A stretch of DNA of 44,293 nt from an uncultured Lysobacterales bacterium (GTDB lineage: Bacteria > Pseudomonadota > Gammaproteobacteria > Xanthomonadales > SZUA-36): positions 1-44,293 of the forward strand of contig CALBDB010000100.1 in assembly GCA_937927755.1 (NCBI GenBank), given 5' to 3'. The notes beneath the pieces were generated by a model. It was given only the letters and a program-made list of their open reading frames with translations, did not search any database and was not told the origin of the DNA. The stretch's first letter is position 1, and every line of letters begins with the position of its first letter. This document shows, in pieces, positions 14,775 to 32,253 of the stretch. The translations under genes were made by a program, and so were the position numbers.

Positions 14775-15383
14775 TTACCCGGAAGATGAATCCTGGTCGG
14801 ATTCAAGGTCATCACCACGATTCATGATCGGCCAGGCAGCGTGCAGGTAAACCCACATGGACCACAACGTCAGTGCAGCTGCAAGGTAAAGCAGCATCTC
14901 GCCAACAAGCAGGACAGGCAGACCAAATAAGTCTGCCTCGAATAACAGGCAGCTGATCGCCGTCATCTGAAATATGGTTTTCAATTTGCCGAGCAATCCT
15001 ACCCTGACCGTGCCGCGTTCACCCATTTCAGACATCCATTCCCGCAGCCCGGATATCGCAATTTCCCTCCCGATAATGATAGCCGCAGACAGGGTAAAAA
15101 ATATCTCGGGAAATATTATCTGTGGTGGTGTTTGCACCAGCAGTACCAATGCCGTTGCAACCATCAGCTTGTCTGCCACCGGATCAAGGAATGCACCAAA
15201 CTTTGACATCAATCCCATGCGCCGCGCCAGGTAGCCATCGGCCCAGTCTGTAATCGCCGCTGAAATAAATACCACGGCGGCTGCAAAACTCGCCCACGTG
15301 TACGGCAAATAGAAAACTAAAACCAACACTGGAATCAGCGCGATTCGCAACAGTGTCAGCATCATCGGAAACGTCATTGGCAT
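14775..15383 (-). CDS. pgsA: PgsA, phosphatidylglycerophosphate synthase
   Basis: PgsA joins CDP-diacylglycerol to glycerol-3-phosphate, the committed step to phosphatidylglycerol. The CDP-alcohol phosphatidyltransferase signature is complete: Asp46, Asp49, Gly50, Ala53, Arg54, Gly63, Asp67 and Asp71 in [20 protein letters not shown] and LDPVAD. Several membrane helices surround it. The C-terminal 20 residues are acidic. The start is at 15383, with a second ATG two codons later. It follows uvrC on the same strand after a 71-nt gap, the same pairing as in E. coli. Confidence 0.95.
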
Positions 15384-15454
15384 GGATTGGGCCCACTCGG
15401 AGTTATACCGCCATTATCGCAGACAACCGAGCATTATTGCAGGGGAAATCGCCC

Positions 15455-17290
15455 TTAATGCAGCGCCTTGAAGATTCGCTCCGCCAATTGCCGGTTGATA
15501 CCGGGGATGCCCGTCAGTTCTTCCACTCCCGCCTTGCGAACACCCTGCAAGCCACCGAAATGTGTCAGCAAGGCACGGCGCCGGCGTGCTCCGACACCTG
15601 GTATGTCTTCCAGCACCGAGTGCACAACGGCCTTTTGACGACGTCCACGGTGACCGGTGATGGCGAACCGGTGGGCTTCATCCCTGACCTGCTGCACCAG
15701 GTGCGAGGCGGCGGACTCGGGGCCCGGTTGCAGGCTGTGCGGGGCAACCTGCAGCACCCATTCCTCGTAGCCCGCGCGTCGTGACGGGCCCTTGGCAACG
15801 CCCATCAGGGGGATGTCACTGAGGCCGCAATCAGCCAGTACTTCCATGGCGACACCCAGTTGCCCCTTGCCGCCGTCCACGAGGATCAGGTCAGGCATGT
15901 GGCCGTCTTCCTTTTGGAGCTTTCTATACCTGCGCCCCAGCACCTCGCGCATCGCCGCGTAATCGTCTCCGGGGGTAAAGCCTTTCAGGTTGTAACGCCG
16001 ATAGCGGGATTTAACCGGACCATCGATACCAAACACCACGCAGGAGGCGACGGTCTTGTGACCGGATGTATGTGAGATATCAAAGCACTCAATGGACTGC
16101 GGTATCTCGTCAAGGTCGAGCAAACCGGCCAGCTCTTCAAACTGCCGGCCAATACGTGATGATTCCGAACTGCGCATGTGCAGCGCATTCAGCGCATTTC
16201 TACCTGCCAGCTCCAGCCATTGCTTGCGGTGGCTGCGTGGGCGTGGCTGCAAATGGACCTTGCGCCCGATACGCTCACTGAAAACTTCCTCGAACAGGCC
16301 TTGCTGCTCCACCGGATGGGAAATGATCAATTCTGGCGGCGGCCTCCGGTCTCGATAGTACTGGCCAAGAAACGCCTGCAACACTTCGGCATCTGCGTGC
16401 CCCTCTGCCTGGGTCGGGAAATAATCGCGTTGTCCGAGGCTGCGGCCACCGCGCACCGATATTACTTCGATGGCACAGGTGCTTCCCAACCTTGCCAGTG
16501 CGATGATATCCAGATCGCCGTTGCCCGACGAAACAAACTGGCGGGCCTGCATCTGCTTCAAATGATTTATCTGGTCGCGGTAATGGGCCGCCTGTTCGTA
16601 GTGTTGCGCAGCGGCGGCTCTTTCCATGCGCGCGATCAGGCGTGTAATTACCTTCTGGCTGTGTCCACGCAAAAACAGCAGTGCGTCCTCCACCTGGCCG
16701 GCATATTCGGCGGGGCTTACCCTGCCAACGCAAGGTGCGGTACAGCGCTTGATCTGGAACTGCAGACAGGGGCGCGAGCGATGGCTGAAATAACTGTCTT
16801 CACAGTTTCGTAAAAGGAAAAGCTTCTGGATCAGGTTGATGCTTTCACGCACCGAGCTGGCGGAGGGATACGGACCGAGATATCGCCTGCCCTTATCTTT
16901 TCCGCCGCGGTGAAATGCGATCCTTGGATACTCGTGATCGGTGCCCAGCATGACCCAGGGATAACTCTTGTCATCCCGCAATAGCACGTTGTAGCGCGGC
17001 TTGAGCGACTTGATCCACTCGTTCTCAAGCAGCAGCGCCTCGGCCTCGGTGCGGGCCAGGCTGACCTCGATAGACCGGATGCGCGCCACCATGCGCATGA
17101 TTCGCTCGATCTTTGGCCTGGCATCAAAATAGCTGGAAACCCGTTTGCGCAAATTGGCGGCCTTGCCGACATACAAGGCAGTGCCATCCGAATCACGCAT
17201 CAGGTAAACACCGGGACCGGCAGACAGGCGGCGGGCAAATTTCCTGCCGTCAAAACCCGCCTCGGCCTGCTTCAATCCGGCATCACTCAC
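15455..17290 (-). CDS. uvrC: UvrABC system protein C
   Basis: UvrC makes both incisions in nucleotide excision repair. The 611-aa protein has the N-terminal GIY-YIG nuclease (GPGVYLMRDSDGTALYVGKA, about 25-45), a Cys-containing segment (RPCLQFQIKRCTAPCVG), a UVR motif near 205-235, the RNase H-like C-terminal nuclease (ECFDISHTSG, LILVDGGKGQL) and a helix-hairpin-helix pair (IPGVGARRRRALLTHFGG, IPGINRQLAERI). The start is a GTG whose GTGA overlaps the stop of the upstream phosphatase gene. Unlike in enterics, the uvrY-type regulator is not upstream; the GacA-like gene lies about 14 kb away. Confidence 0.97.
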   Translation of the reverse strand: MSDAGLKQAEAGFDGRKFARRLSAGPGVYLMRDSDGTALYVGKAANLRKRVSSYFDARPKIERIMRMVARIRSIEVSLARTEAEALLLENEWIKSLKPRYNVLLRDDKSYPWVMLGTDHEYPRIAFHRGGKDKGRRYLGPYPSASSVRESINLIQKLFLLRNCEDSYFSHRSRPCLQFQIKRCTAPCVGRVSPAEYAGQVEDALLFLRGHSQKVITRLIARMERAAAAQHYEQAAHYRDQINHLKQMQARQFVSSGNGDLDIIALARLGSTCAIEVISVRGGRSLGQRDYFPTQAEGHADAEVLQAFLGQYYRDRRPPPELIISHPVEQQGLFEEVFSERIGRKVHLQPRPRSHRKQWLELAGRNALNALHMRSSESSRIGRQFEELAGLLDLDEIPQSIECFDISHTSGHKTVASCVVFGIDGPVKSRYRRYNLKGFTPGDDYAAMREVLGRRYRKLQKEDGHMPDLILVDGGKGQLGVAMEVLADCGLSDIPLMGVAKGPSRRAGYEEWVLQVAPHSLQPGPESAASHLVQQVRDEAHRFAITGHRGRRQKAVVHSVLEDIPGVGARRRRALLTHFGGLQGVRKAGVEELTGIPGINRQLAERIFKALH

Positions 17291-28042: not shown

Positions 28043-28430
28043 TGATAGAAAATGAAAAGACTGCTATATTGTCGCGGCAATGGATTCGCCCTGCCGAATT
28101 GTTCTCCGGAACCGCCTGATTATCTCACCTAAGCCGTGCTTTAAATTGGCCGGGCTCCCCGGATACAGCAACAGTTTACACGTTGATTCACGGGCAGAAC
28201 TATCGAATTCACCTGCTGACTGATAGCAGGAAAGACGTATTTTTGATGGCAGACCGACAAGCTGCCATCGGAGGACCTGACCAGAATAGTGCTGGTCTGG
28301 CTATGAAAACAAAATTTGGTACCCCCGGCAAAGATGCAAGACATCGCCGGGTCAGCTCAGTGGAAACATGGTGCAGAAAAGCCGTGTTAGTCCACCGCCG
28401 CCCCGTACCGGGGTGCCTGAGGACATTACA
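28043..28430 (+). promoter_or_regulatory. Structured rne leader and rluC/rne divergent region
   Basis: This 388-nt gap holds the promoters for divergent rluC and rne. It contains a series of hairpins on the rne side: CCTGCT/AGCAGG (28212-28230), GATGGCAG/CTGCCATC (28245-28269, 8 bp perfect), GACCAG/CTGGTC (28279-28297), CCCGGC/GCCGGG with an inner GATG/CATC (28324-28351), and CCCCG/CGGGG (28401-28413). In E. coli a structured rne leader lets RNase E control its own mRNA. A similar role here is inferred from position and structure, not from sequence identity. Confidence 0.6.
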
Positions 28431-31166
28431 ATGAAAAGAATGCTGATTAACGCAACTCAGCCAGAAGAGTTGCGTGTGGCAATTGCCGAGGGTCAACACC
28501 TGTTTGACCTTGATATAGAAGTACCGTCACAGGAACAAAAGAAATCAAACGTTTACAAGGGCAAGATCACGCGGGTTGAACCGTCGCTCGAGGCATGTTT
28601 TGTCGAGTTCGGCTCCACCCGGCACGGCTTTCTGCCGCTCAAGGAGATTTGCGAAAGCAGTTACTCCAAAGATCTATCAAGGAAAGGCGGAAAATTAGCC
28701 ATACGTGACGTCGTCAAGGAAGGCCAGGAGATCATTGTCCAGGTCGAAAAAGAGGAACGTGGCAACAAGGGTGCCGCCCTGACAACCTATATTTCCCTGG
28801 CAGGTCGTTACCTTGTCCTGATGCCGACCAACCCGTCTGCGGGTGGCGTATCAAGACGCATCACCGGTAATGACCGGGACCATTTGCGAGAGCAGTTACA
28901 GAAAGTCACCACCCCGGACAACGTAGGCATCATAGTACGCACCGCCGGTGTTGGAAGGGACGCGGACGAATTGCAATGGGACCTCGATTACCTGCTGCAA
29001 TTGTGGTCAGCCATCGAGCAGGCCGCCGCAAACCGCCCTGCCCCTTTCCTTATTTACCAGGAGAGCAACCTGTTCATTCGTGCGCTCCGTGACCACCTCA
29101 GAAATGATATCGGCGAAATACTGATAGATAACGAAACCGTCTACAACGACGCGCGGGAATTCATCCAGCAGGTCATGCCGCATAATCTGAACAAGCTCAA
29201 GTTGTACAGCGACCAGGTTCCGCTTTTTAACCGCTACCAGATAGAAAGTCAGATCGAATCTGCATTTGCACGCACCGTACACCTGCCATCCGGCGGTGCG
29301 GTCGTGTTCGACCATACCGAGGCCCTGCTGTCCATCGATATCAACTCGGCCCGTGCAACCAAGGGATCGGATATCGAGGAAACGGCATACAACACCAACA
29401 TGGAATCCGCCTACGAGATTGCGCGCCAGTTGCGCCTGCGTGACCTGGGCGGCCTGATCGTTATCGATTTCATTGACATGACCAGCCGAAAGCACCAGCG
29501 CGAAGTCGAGGAATGCCTGCGGCGTGCGATGCAGATCGACAAGGCACGTGTGCAGATCGGACGTATCTCGCGGTTTGGGTTGCTCGAAATGTCCCGCCAG
29601 AGGTTGCGGCCATCACTGGGTGAATCCAGCCAGGACACCTGCCCGCGTTGTGAGGGACACGGTACGATCCGCAGCGTGGAATCCCTCGCCCTGTCCATTC
29701 TCCGGCTTGTCGAAGAAGAGGTCATGAAGGATTATACCGGTCAGATTATTGTCCAGGCGCCTACCGAGGTGATCAACTTCCTGCACAATGAAAAGCGCGC
29801 CGCGCTGGCAGAAGTTGAGTCACGCCACCGGGTGCCGATCGTGATGCTTGCCAACCAATACCTGGTAACACCGCATTTTGAAATCCTGCGTGTCAGAAAG
29901 TCTGATATTTCAGATGATCCGAGCTATTCCCGAATTGACCACCCTGAAGCACAGGTAATTGCGAACGAACGCTCGCAGGCCAACGCCATCGCAGTACCGG
30001 CACCGGCAGTCAAACGCATAGTGCCCGACCGCCCTGCGCCTCCACGGAGCGAAGAAAAAGCCCCGGGCCTGTTCCGCCGCATGGCCAATATTCTTTTCTC
30101 ACCCCCAAAAGTGGAAGAAAAGAGCAAACCGGTGCAAAGCAGGAAAAAGACAGTCAGAAAGGGCGATGCGCAAAGCAGGCAACAGGCCGAAAAATCTTCT
30201 GGCCAGCAATCCAGGCGAAGAACCACCAAGAAGCGCGCCAGCAAAGACAACCAGCCTGGTAGCCAGAAGAACCTGCAACAAAAGAATCAGCAAAGCCAGA
30301 AAAAACGCACAAGTAAAAAGCGGCCATCAAAGAAGACACAGCAAAGCAAGGCTCAGAAGCCCAAGGCCAGCCCGGACACCACTAAATCGAATCTGCCAGT
30401 CGAAACCGGTACCGGCAGGCAGTCGGCAAACCAGGCGGACACAAAGTCACCTGCCGGCGCTGAACAGCAAAAACCCGAGCAAAAGGAAAGTGGCAACCGC
30501 AGCAGGGGTGGACGCAGGAGAAGATCCCCCTACAAGACCGGTGGCTCAAAGCCACGCCAGGAACGTACTGATTCAGCACCCGTGACAGTAGACGACACCG
30601 GGGGCCGGCCACAGACTTCAGCGGGCGACAAATCGACTGAAGAAAAGTCCAAGCCCGTAGAAGTTGCAAAGACCGATACGAAGCCTTCAGATACCAGCAC
30701 GTCCAAACCTGATACACACAAACCCGAGCCGAAGGAATCAATGCCGGTTAAGACCGGAAGACCCGAGCCGAAGTCAACCGATTCGGAACCCGTTCAACAG
30801 GCTGGAAAAACACCGCCTGTGATTGAGGACAAAACCAAAGAAGAATCATCTGCCGGACCAAAATCGGAAGATACTGCTGGGAAAGAGGCAAAAACCAGCA
30901 AGCGTTCTCCAAAGAAAAAATCGGCCTCCAAAAAGGCAAGTAAGAAAACGGCCACCAAAGCTGCACCACAGAAAGCAAAAAAAGAAGCGTCGAAATCTGG
31001 GACACCTTCAAGCAAAGGGCCGCAAAAAGAGCCCTCAAAGGCAGAAGATAACAAGGTAGATTCGCCAAAAGCGGAAGCGGCCAAGGCGCCCGCGCCACGC
31101 CCGACAAGTGTGCTGGAAAAAGACTCAAAAGGTATTTATACGCTGAAGCCACCACCATCGGAGTAA
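28431..31166 (+). CDS. rne: RNase E
   Basis: RNase E is the essential endoribonuclease for mRNA decay and for rRNA and tRNA processing, and it scaffolds the degradosome. The 911-aa protein has an S1 domain (about 38-120), the catalytic DNase I-like region with Asp303 ([12 protein letters not shown]) and Asp346 (IVIDFIDM), and the zinc link Cys404/Cys407 (CPRCEGHG). All four residues are at E. coli numbering. [11 protein letters not shown] (about 546-556) looks like the amphipathic membrane-targeting helix, and RGGRRRR near 690 is an arginine-rich RNA-binding patch. The remaining C-terminal half is Lys, Ser, Gln and Pro rich and disordered. The ATG at 28431 has GAGGA 7 nt upstream; the frame open from 28368 is leader. 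Confidence 0.98.
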
Positions 31167-31195: not shown

Positions 31196-31227
31196 TAACG
31201 GCCAGGCATTCCTGGCCGTTACGTTTT
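31196..31227 (+). terminator. Rho-independent terminator of rne
   Basis: An 11-bp perfect stem (TAACGGCCAGG / CCTGGCCGTTA) with a CATT loop is followed by CGTTTTT, 29 nt after the rne stop. Confidence 0.93.
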
Positions 31228-31271: not shown

Positions 31272-31913
31272 TCAGGCAGCATCCACCAGGCCATATCGCA
31301 TGGCCATTCGCACAAGTTCAACTTCGCTCCTTGCACCAAGCTTACCCAATATCCGGTATTTGTAGGTTGAGACCGTTTTGGGGCTCAAGCACATCAATGA
31401 AGCAATATCCGGAATCCGACGTCCATCTGTTATCTTGAGCATTACCTCCATTTCACGTGCCGACAGATCTTCGAAAGGCGATTCCCCCGAACCGGCGGAA
31501 AGCATGGACAAAGCAAGTTGCTTGGCAGCTTCACTGCCGATATATCGCTGACCGGCGGCCACGGCCCTGATGGCCTGTAGTAGCTCACCGGCGTCGCAGT
31601 CCCGGGTCAGGTATCCGCTGGCCCCTGCCCCGAGCAACCTCGCCGGATAAGGTGCCTTGGCATGCACTGCCAACACTATGATTTTTGCGTCCGGATGTGT
31701 ACGTTTGAGTTTTCGAATTACCTCAAAACCTGTCAGTCCAGGTAAATTGACGCTGAGAAGAATGACGTCCGGACGCATCTGCCTGCACCGGTTATGGGCC
31801 ACCTCCTGCGATGATGCTTCATTGATTTTTGTAATCTCGCTGCTTTGGTCAAGAATATGCCGCAACCCCGTTCTGACAAGCGCCTGATCGTTAACGATTA
31901 GAATTTGAATCAT
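31272..31913 (-). CDS. GacA/UvrY-like LuxR-type regulator with degenerate receiver
   Basis: The 213-aa protein aligns along its whole length with GacA/UvrY response regulators: a receiver domain (about 1-120) and a LuxR-type helix-turn-helix (LSAREMEVMLKITDG to LSPKTVSTYKYRIL, about 149-200), ending GLVDAA like GacA. The receiver site is altered. The acidic pair DD at 8-9 is Asn8-Asp9, the phosphoacceptor Asp54 is Ser54 (DVILLSVNLPG, codon AGC), Thr82 is Ala and Lys104 is Arg (SGYLTRDC). It is therefore unlikely to be switched by BarA/GacS-type phosphorylation. The DNA-binding part looks intact. AAGGGGGG lies just upstream of the ATG. No kinase gene is adjacent. Confidence 0.9.
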   Translation of the reverse strand: MIQILIVNDQALVRTGLRHILDQSSEITKINEASSQEVAHNRCRQMRPDVILLSVNLPGLTGFEVIRKLKRTHPDAKIIVLAVHAKAPYPARLLGAGASGYLTRDCDAGELLQAIRAVAAGQRYIGSEAAKQLALSMLSAGSGESPFEDLSAREMEVMLKITDGRRIPDIASLMCLSPKTVSTYKYRILGKLGARSEVELVRMAMRYGLVDAA

Positions 31914-32253
31914 GTTCTCCCCCCTTGGATCGATTCTATTTTATGTTGATATTTTCGTGTCTGACCCTTTCCACTTATAAAACCCGCGTTCCCATCATGC
32001 CGGATATGACATGACTGAAATAAAACGTAGGTTTATTAACTATAGACAGAGGATTTGCTTTCGTCGACCGGGGAAAACAGAAAATACGATTACGGGCAAA
32101 TTTCCTACAGGATTTTCATCACTTTGAGGTCAGAAATGGCCCGGGAGACTGCGCAGGCTGGTACCTGGCGCGACAAACAGTCCTCGAACATAACTTGATT
32201 TATACAAATTTTGTGCGATGCTTAAGTGGCGAGCATAAGCCCGGAGGGGATTT
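31914..32253. other. Divergent intergenic region
   Basis: This 340-nt gap must hold the promoters of the divergent GacA-like gene and the methyltransferase gene. It is AT-rich near 31930-32070. I saw no convincing operator palindrome, RNA gene or short gene in it. Confidence 0.5.

Follow-up and report, generated by a model that had tools for sequence, protein, structure and literature searches.

A GacA/UvrY-type response regulator without its phosphoacceptor aspartate in a lineage of uncultured Lysobacterales bacteria

Here we report that the GacA/UvrY-type response regulator of an uncultured Lysobacterales bacterium, encoded in a 44,293-nucleotide stretch of DNA that was analysed as a whole (the window), has a receiver domain without the phosphoacceptor aspartate. 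As read from aligned orthologues, this loss is a trait of its clade. GacA-type regulators are understood as phosphorelay-driven. Its sequence and those of its relatives make it very probable that the gene is a conserved, functional orthologue working independently of phosphorylation. Our best explanation as a whole, which we hold to be fairly probable, is that a GacA orthologue was made stepwise into a pseudo-receiver regulator that binds DNA without phosphorylation and is controlled through its level. If true, a near-universal global regulator of the order would have left two-component control in preserved steps. One locus gives close relatives before, midway through and after the loss, so that natural orthologues could reveal what replaced phosphorylation.

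Protein, locus and orthology

The minus strand of 31272-31913 translates into a 213-aa open reading frame without an internal stop, and the same frame of the plus strand is not open. The translation reads MIQILIVNDQALVR...DVILLSVNLPG...IVLAVHAK...GYLTRDC...LSPKTVSTYKYRI...GLVDAA. Its aligned site residues are N8, D9, S54 (codon AGC), A82, Y101 and R104, which confirms the changes at positions 8, 54, 82 and 104, with Asp9 kept, that a sequence-only reading of this DNA had described. Pfam places Response_reg at residues 4-116 and GerE at residues 150-204. The top NCBIfam model is UvrY/SirA/GacA (NF007018) with 233 bits, the runner-up scoring 133; together with the position of the gene, this bears out the membership of the GacA/UvrY line claimed in the same reading. 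The score is under the curated cut-off of 280 bits. Since nine of the ten relatives scanned with the model are under it too (210-255 bits, eight of these nine with Asp54; the tenth passes with 285), the shortfall would mostly reflect the lineage rather than the lost residues.

A predicted structure of the protein (mean pLDDT 88.4) contains both the receiver and the HTH fold. The top PDB matches of the model, among them LiaR, VraR, EvgA and RcsB, are full-length response regulators of the LuxR type. By this model the window protein is a pseudo-receiver protein, i.e. a receiver fold minus the phospho-Asp. Aspartate-less receivers are a known class in which Ser is a common replacement (15%; available text of PMC4395418), and pseudo-receivers make up about 6% of a representative bacterial receiver set (available text of PMC12632262).

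The features of the locus are listed in the table below. In the family, rne adjoins gacA in 26 of 32 loci, the window included, and in the remaining six the contig stops less than 1 kb from gacA on the rne side. Outside the family it adjoins gacA in 10 of 21 order loci, facing it in nine and running parallel to it in one (G040). Of 397 order genomes, 378 contain a relative at E<=1e-42; at E<=1e-38, seven of 39 family genomes are without an orthologue, and one (G001) gives a fragment only. The window genome holds a single match at E<=1e-38; relaxing the threshold to E<=1e-20 adds one weaker match. Judged from similarity and synteny, the window gene is the order's GacA/UvrY-type regulator, at its usual site beside rne.

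The sequence-only reading had seen in it a paralogue, detached from uvrC and perhaps antagonistic to a true GacA. The gammaproteobacterial arrangement has uvrC directly downstream of uvrY/gacA. Among the order stretches read, which differ in length, uvrC stands beside the gacA orthologue in none, so its distance is no special sign here; it does adjoin the gacA homologue in an outside locus (L005). A paralogue displaced from uvrC is ruled out by synteny, as the gene occupies the same rne-side locus as gacA elsewhere in the order. The search for a canonical gacA elsewhere in the genome gave no second match at E<=1e-38, which leaves antagonism to a true GacA without an evident partner.

Table. 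Features of the gacA locus and related genes in the window
Feature	Position	Strand	Basis or remark
pgsA and uvrC, gacA not alongside	14775..17290	-	
rne (RNase E), convergent neighbour of gacA	28368..31166	+	
Terminator-like hairpin, rne-gacA gap	31196..31221	+	scan: 2 in the stretch vs 1.4 expected
gacA orthologue with aspartate-less receiver (N8 D9 S54 A82 Y101 R104), 213 aa	31272..31913	-	ORF, NCBIfam, Pfam, alignment
LuxR/GerE-type DNA-binding domain, residues 147-211	31281..31475	-	mean identity 0.91 in genus
Receiver domain, residues 1-120	31554..31913	-	fast evolving in clade, purifying selection kept
Codon 54, AGC (Ser) where the phosphoacceptor Asp is expected	31752..31754	-	alignment
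Promoter-like TCGACG-N17-TATAGT of gacA	32039..32067	-	scan: 3 found vs 1.4 expected
Upstream element TGTAGGAAATTTGCC	32095..32109	-	TGTAGG-like element conserved in genus

Loss of Asp54 and the order of changes

The alignment of orthologues upholds the lost Asp54. Position 54 is non-Asp in all ten genomes of the window's genus (g1), with Ser in nine and Asn (AAC) in one, so none of the close relatives inside the genus carries the Asp54 that, in the sequence-only reading, would have pointed to a sequencing error or a decaying copy. The nine Ser codons, that of the window included, are AGC five times and AGT four times, and this use of two codons by nine genomes rules out a sequencing error at codon 54. 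The sole genome read from genus g9 has Ala54 (GCC). Asp54 is found in all 21 other family members, in all 21 order genomes of the first set and in a further 60 of 60 order genomes, hand-picked among the matches listed and not randomly drawn, which all have T/S82 and K104 and in seven cases E8; this amounts to 81 of the 81 other order genomes read (21 + 60).

Position 104 is R, L or M in the 10 of 10 readable non-Asp54 members, and K104 is kept in 20 of the 21 family members with Asp54, among them eight of the nine that combine Asp54 with A82. The fragment from G001 ends at about residue 74 and counts for codons 8, 9 and 54 only. Asn8 was seen in the window genome alone, the other nine genus members having Asp8, so it is not a clade feature and may be a private change or an error. 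Four of the nine A82 members with Asp54 are altered in the acidic pair, Asp9 being replaced by Ser in two (DS; G035, G061) and by Glu in two (DE; G022, G028). These changes in relatives with Asp54 suggest that outside the non-Asp54 clade, too, phosphotransfer may have become weaker.

On a tree computed without the site columns and excluding G001, T82A is a single change that spans 19 rows, and nine members of this A82 clade keep Asp54. Within the clade the tree gives two losses of Asp54, one in g1 and one in g9, as g9 groups with the Asp54-bearing genus g14 (support 91/89); a single clade of the non-Asp54 rows was not rejected (p-AU 0.31). Long branches met at the outgroup of this tree, far from the A82 clade. 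By its topology, T82A preceded the loss of Asp54, in an ancestor that still had the aspartate.

The constraint on the two domains differs along the same lines. With G001 and L005, the outside locus, excluded, receiver branch lengths divided by HTH branch lengths give 3.4 for the genus, 2.8 for the remaining A82 members, 1.06 for T/S82 family members and 0.78 for the remainder of the order; in the tree of this rate test the genus and the A82 group each form one clade, and the family does not. When columns were bootstrapped 100 times with the topology fixed, the ratio of the genus or of the other A82 members never came to or below the T/S82 value. The T/S82 family ratio is 1.38-fold that of the rest of the order (2 of 100 bootstraps <=1), a slight shift present already in T/S82 family members. 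With the catalytic part of RNase E as the yardstick, the values for the genus, the other A82 members and the T/S82 family are 3.83, 3.30 and 1.74 for the receiver and 0.96, 1.11 and 1.82 for the HTH, given as mean pairwise distances, which are non-independent, over nine, nine and seven genomes, respectively, the last being chosen from the 12 T/S82 family members by availability of the rne part. Against RNase E, the receiver of the A82 clade has therefore evolved about twice as fast and its DNA-binding domain about half as fast. As the A82 members with Asp54 already show the faster receiver and the slower HTH, this shift began before Asp54 was lost.

Over 36 pairs within the genus, median pN/pS reaches 0.26 in the receiver and 0.07 in the HTH; most of these pairs are saturated at synonymous sites. 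On these values we reject a pseudogene; the gene is under selection, and the receiver still under purifying selection.

Upstream signals and searches for partner components

The promoter scan of the window was not significant by itself, so the putative gacA promoter rests on conservation in the genus. In all ten genus members a TGTAGG-like (GTAGGAAAT-type) element precedes the -10 by 64-65 bp; they also share GTCGAC (8 of 10) and a CTATAGT-like -10 upstream of gacA. Leader length ranges between 66 and 125 nt, though the spacing from the element to the -10 is constant, and the leaders carry two to four GGA motifs; in Vibrio cholerae, CsrA is reported to bind the mRNA of VarA, the GacA orthologue (available text of PMC6550530). 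The exact sequence TGTAGGAAATNNRCY has a single match in the window genome, upstream of gacA. A count made without a shuffled control, which covered 18 of the 21 further family members with Asp54, found a GTARGWAA core no more than 300 bp from the start codon in 11 of these 18 and in none of six order members from other families. Its presence before so many relatives with Asp54 indicates that the upstream element is older than the loss of Asp54 and did not arise as compensation for it.

Two other readings of the element were rejected. Against a regulon motif, four of the six exact matches in the genus precede gacA, the other two loci being mutually dissimilar. As a GacA box it fails because the sequence before gacA in the window agrees with the box in at most 7 of 12 letters. 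Separately, two genus-g8 relatives with Asp54 (L114 and L123, in G031 and G034) have a 10/12 match to the box about 95 bp ahead of gacA, a placing that would be consistent with autoregulation in these relatives. The box is not enriched (4 sites vs 6 for the reversed pattern), and Rfam models over these four sites and the csrA stretch found one tRNA and nothing else.

The sequence-only reading had also called for a search for gacS/barA. With up to 12 candidates scored per genome, in drafts of many contigs, none of 61 genomes had a protein over the cut-off of the BarA model, the draft window genome included. The three Hpt domains of the window genome belong to one hybrid kinase and one 1,723-aa open frame; the kinase (G000:C102, L077:1884-4616, minus strand) has two receiver matches and an Hpt, with no membrane sensor part visible by eye. 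Four g11 genomes, with Asp54 and A82, have two Hpt matches each, inside one open frame of 1,800-2,000 residues. A GacS-type kinase may therefore have been absent already in relatives with Asp54, and as the g11 relatives have no Hpt outside one very long frame, the loss of the kinase would not coincide with that of Asp54. Among eight hybrid kinases compared, five from other families of the order can be aligned to one another, in most cases over their length, and a second large ORF with receiver-like letters (by eye) flanks three of the five. None was taken as GacS, since in each of the seven that were scanned the best BarA-model match starts at or after position 262.

Downstream, CsrA is encoded in one copy in the window genome and is present in 9 of 10 genus members. 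The RsmZ model gave nothing over its cut-off in 61 genomes, a weakly informative result as none of 14 controls passed either. An RsmZ-like match at G000:C138:635-759 (29 bits, cut-off 44) was rejected because, by eye, it runs across a hairpin resembling a terminator and across dispersed-repeat copies. On that contig (L130), such copies with TGTAGGAGC-like ends crowd intergenic regions beside CxxCH-motif ORFs.

Proposed mechanism, alternatives and known systems

The sequences show that T82 changed to Ala once, in an ancestor still with Asp54, that Asp54 (to Ser or Asn in the genus, Ala in g9) and K104 were then lost, and that the receiver accelerated and the DNA-binding domain tightened. With Asp54, Thr82 and Lys104 all gone, the phosphoryl switch would be unable to work in its ordinary form. 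In the mechanism that we propose, the protein would accept no phosphate from a GacS-type phosphorelay, and unphosphorylated it would dimerise and bind its old DNA targets; continued binding of these sites is suggested by the tight HTH. The protein would be active once made, and its activity would be set mainly by the amount made, via the conserved promoter element and the GGA-motif leader. The available text of PMC4682653 reports that phosphorylation raises UvrY binding in vitro only about two-fold, which makes phosphate-free binding not far-fetched. The same source gives a roughly 35-fold lower in vivo binding of UvrY to csrB in E. coli without BarA, and cites SirA D54A as losing CsrB expression. 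Taken singly, control of activity through expression has in our view an even chance of being right. The entire course, a stepwise exit from two-component control (T82A and the constraint shift, then loss of Asp54 and K104 once or twice) to an expression-controlled, phosphorylation-independent GacA upstream of Csr, is put forward tentatively, at slightly short of even.

The main rival to expression control is that a ligand or the redox state would control the protein directly: the degenerate pocket or Cys175/Cys106 would sense a signal and alter dimerisation, as with RitR, HP1021 or JadR1. Cys175, in the HTH, follows the clade closely (10 of 10 non-Asp54 members and 8 of 9 A82 members with Asp54, against none of the 12 T/S82 family members or of the 21 order genomes in the first set), and pseudo-receivers controlled in such ways are described in PMC12632262, as far as its available text goes. 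Yet Cys175 also occurs in 1 of the 60 further order members, which have T/S82; Cys106, two residues past position 104, is shared by relatives competent for phosphorylation (all 12 T/S82 family members, 54 of 60 further order members); and no linked sensor or ligand gene was seen, so that we regard this control as unlikely. A role in a heterodimer with, or as an antagonist of, another response regulator of the NarL type could draw on the 34 receiver matches in the window genome and on BldM and WhiI, the atypical regulators of a paper on response-regulator heterodimers (available text of PMC4125116). The lack of a second E<=1e-38 match and the strongest constraint falling on the DNA-binding domain make it improbable.

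That Ser54 is a new phosphorylation site for a Ser/Thr kinase would agree with the Ser in nine genus members, but T82 and K104 are lost as well, and Asn in the tenth member and Ala in g9 rule out Ser phosphorylation as a clade-wide need; we give this very little weight. Decay towards loss of the gene is scarcely credible: the roughly two-fold acceleration of the receiver relative to RNase E and the Asn8 of the window would suit it, and nine full-length ORFs in the genus, the low pN/pS of both domains and the conserved promoter speak against it. We retain the phosphorylation-independent, probably level-controlled regulator as the preferred reading.

Neither GacA nor UvrY is named in the main text of the pseudo-receiver review PMC12632262, as far as available, and among the matches listed from open-licence literature, seen in part, we found no description of a GacA without its Asp or of such a lineage. 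Aspartate-less receivers are thus already known, and an Asp-less GacA in this lineage appears undescribed in that literature. Like GacA, UvrY, SirA and VarA, the window protein is a receiver with a GerE HTH over its full length, matches their NCBIfam model best and is the order's positional orthologue; unlike them, it is without the phosphoacceptor Asp, Thr/Ser82 and Lys104, has no uvrC neighbour and no cognate GacS found in the draft genome, and scores under the model cut-off. With RitR, ChxR, HP1043 and BldM it shares a receiver without the phospho-Asp or other key pocket residues and a DNA-binding output that is kept, and it differs from them in its separate origin within the GacA line, with Asp54 relatives and a T82A intermediate preserved. 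Close counterparts are the Asp54-bearing A82 relatives of g2, g11 and g14 in the same family, which have the same locus, A82, the shared shift of constraint and mostly Cys175, and which, unlike the window protein, retain Asp54 and, in all members except one, K104.
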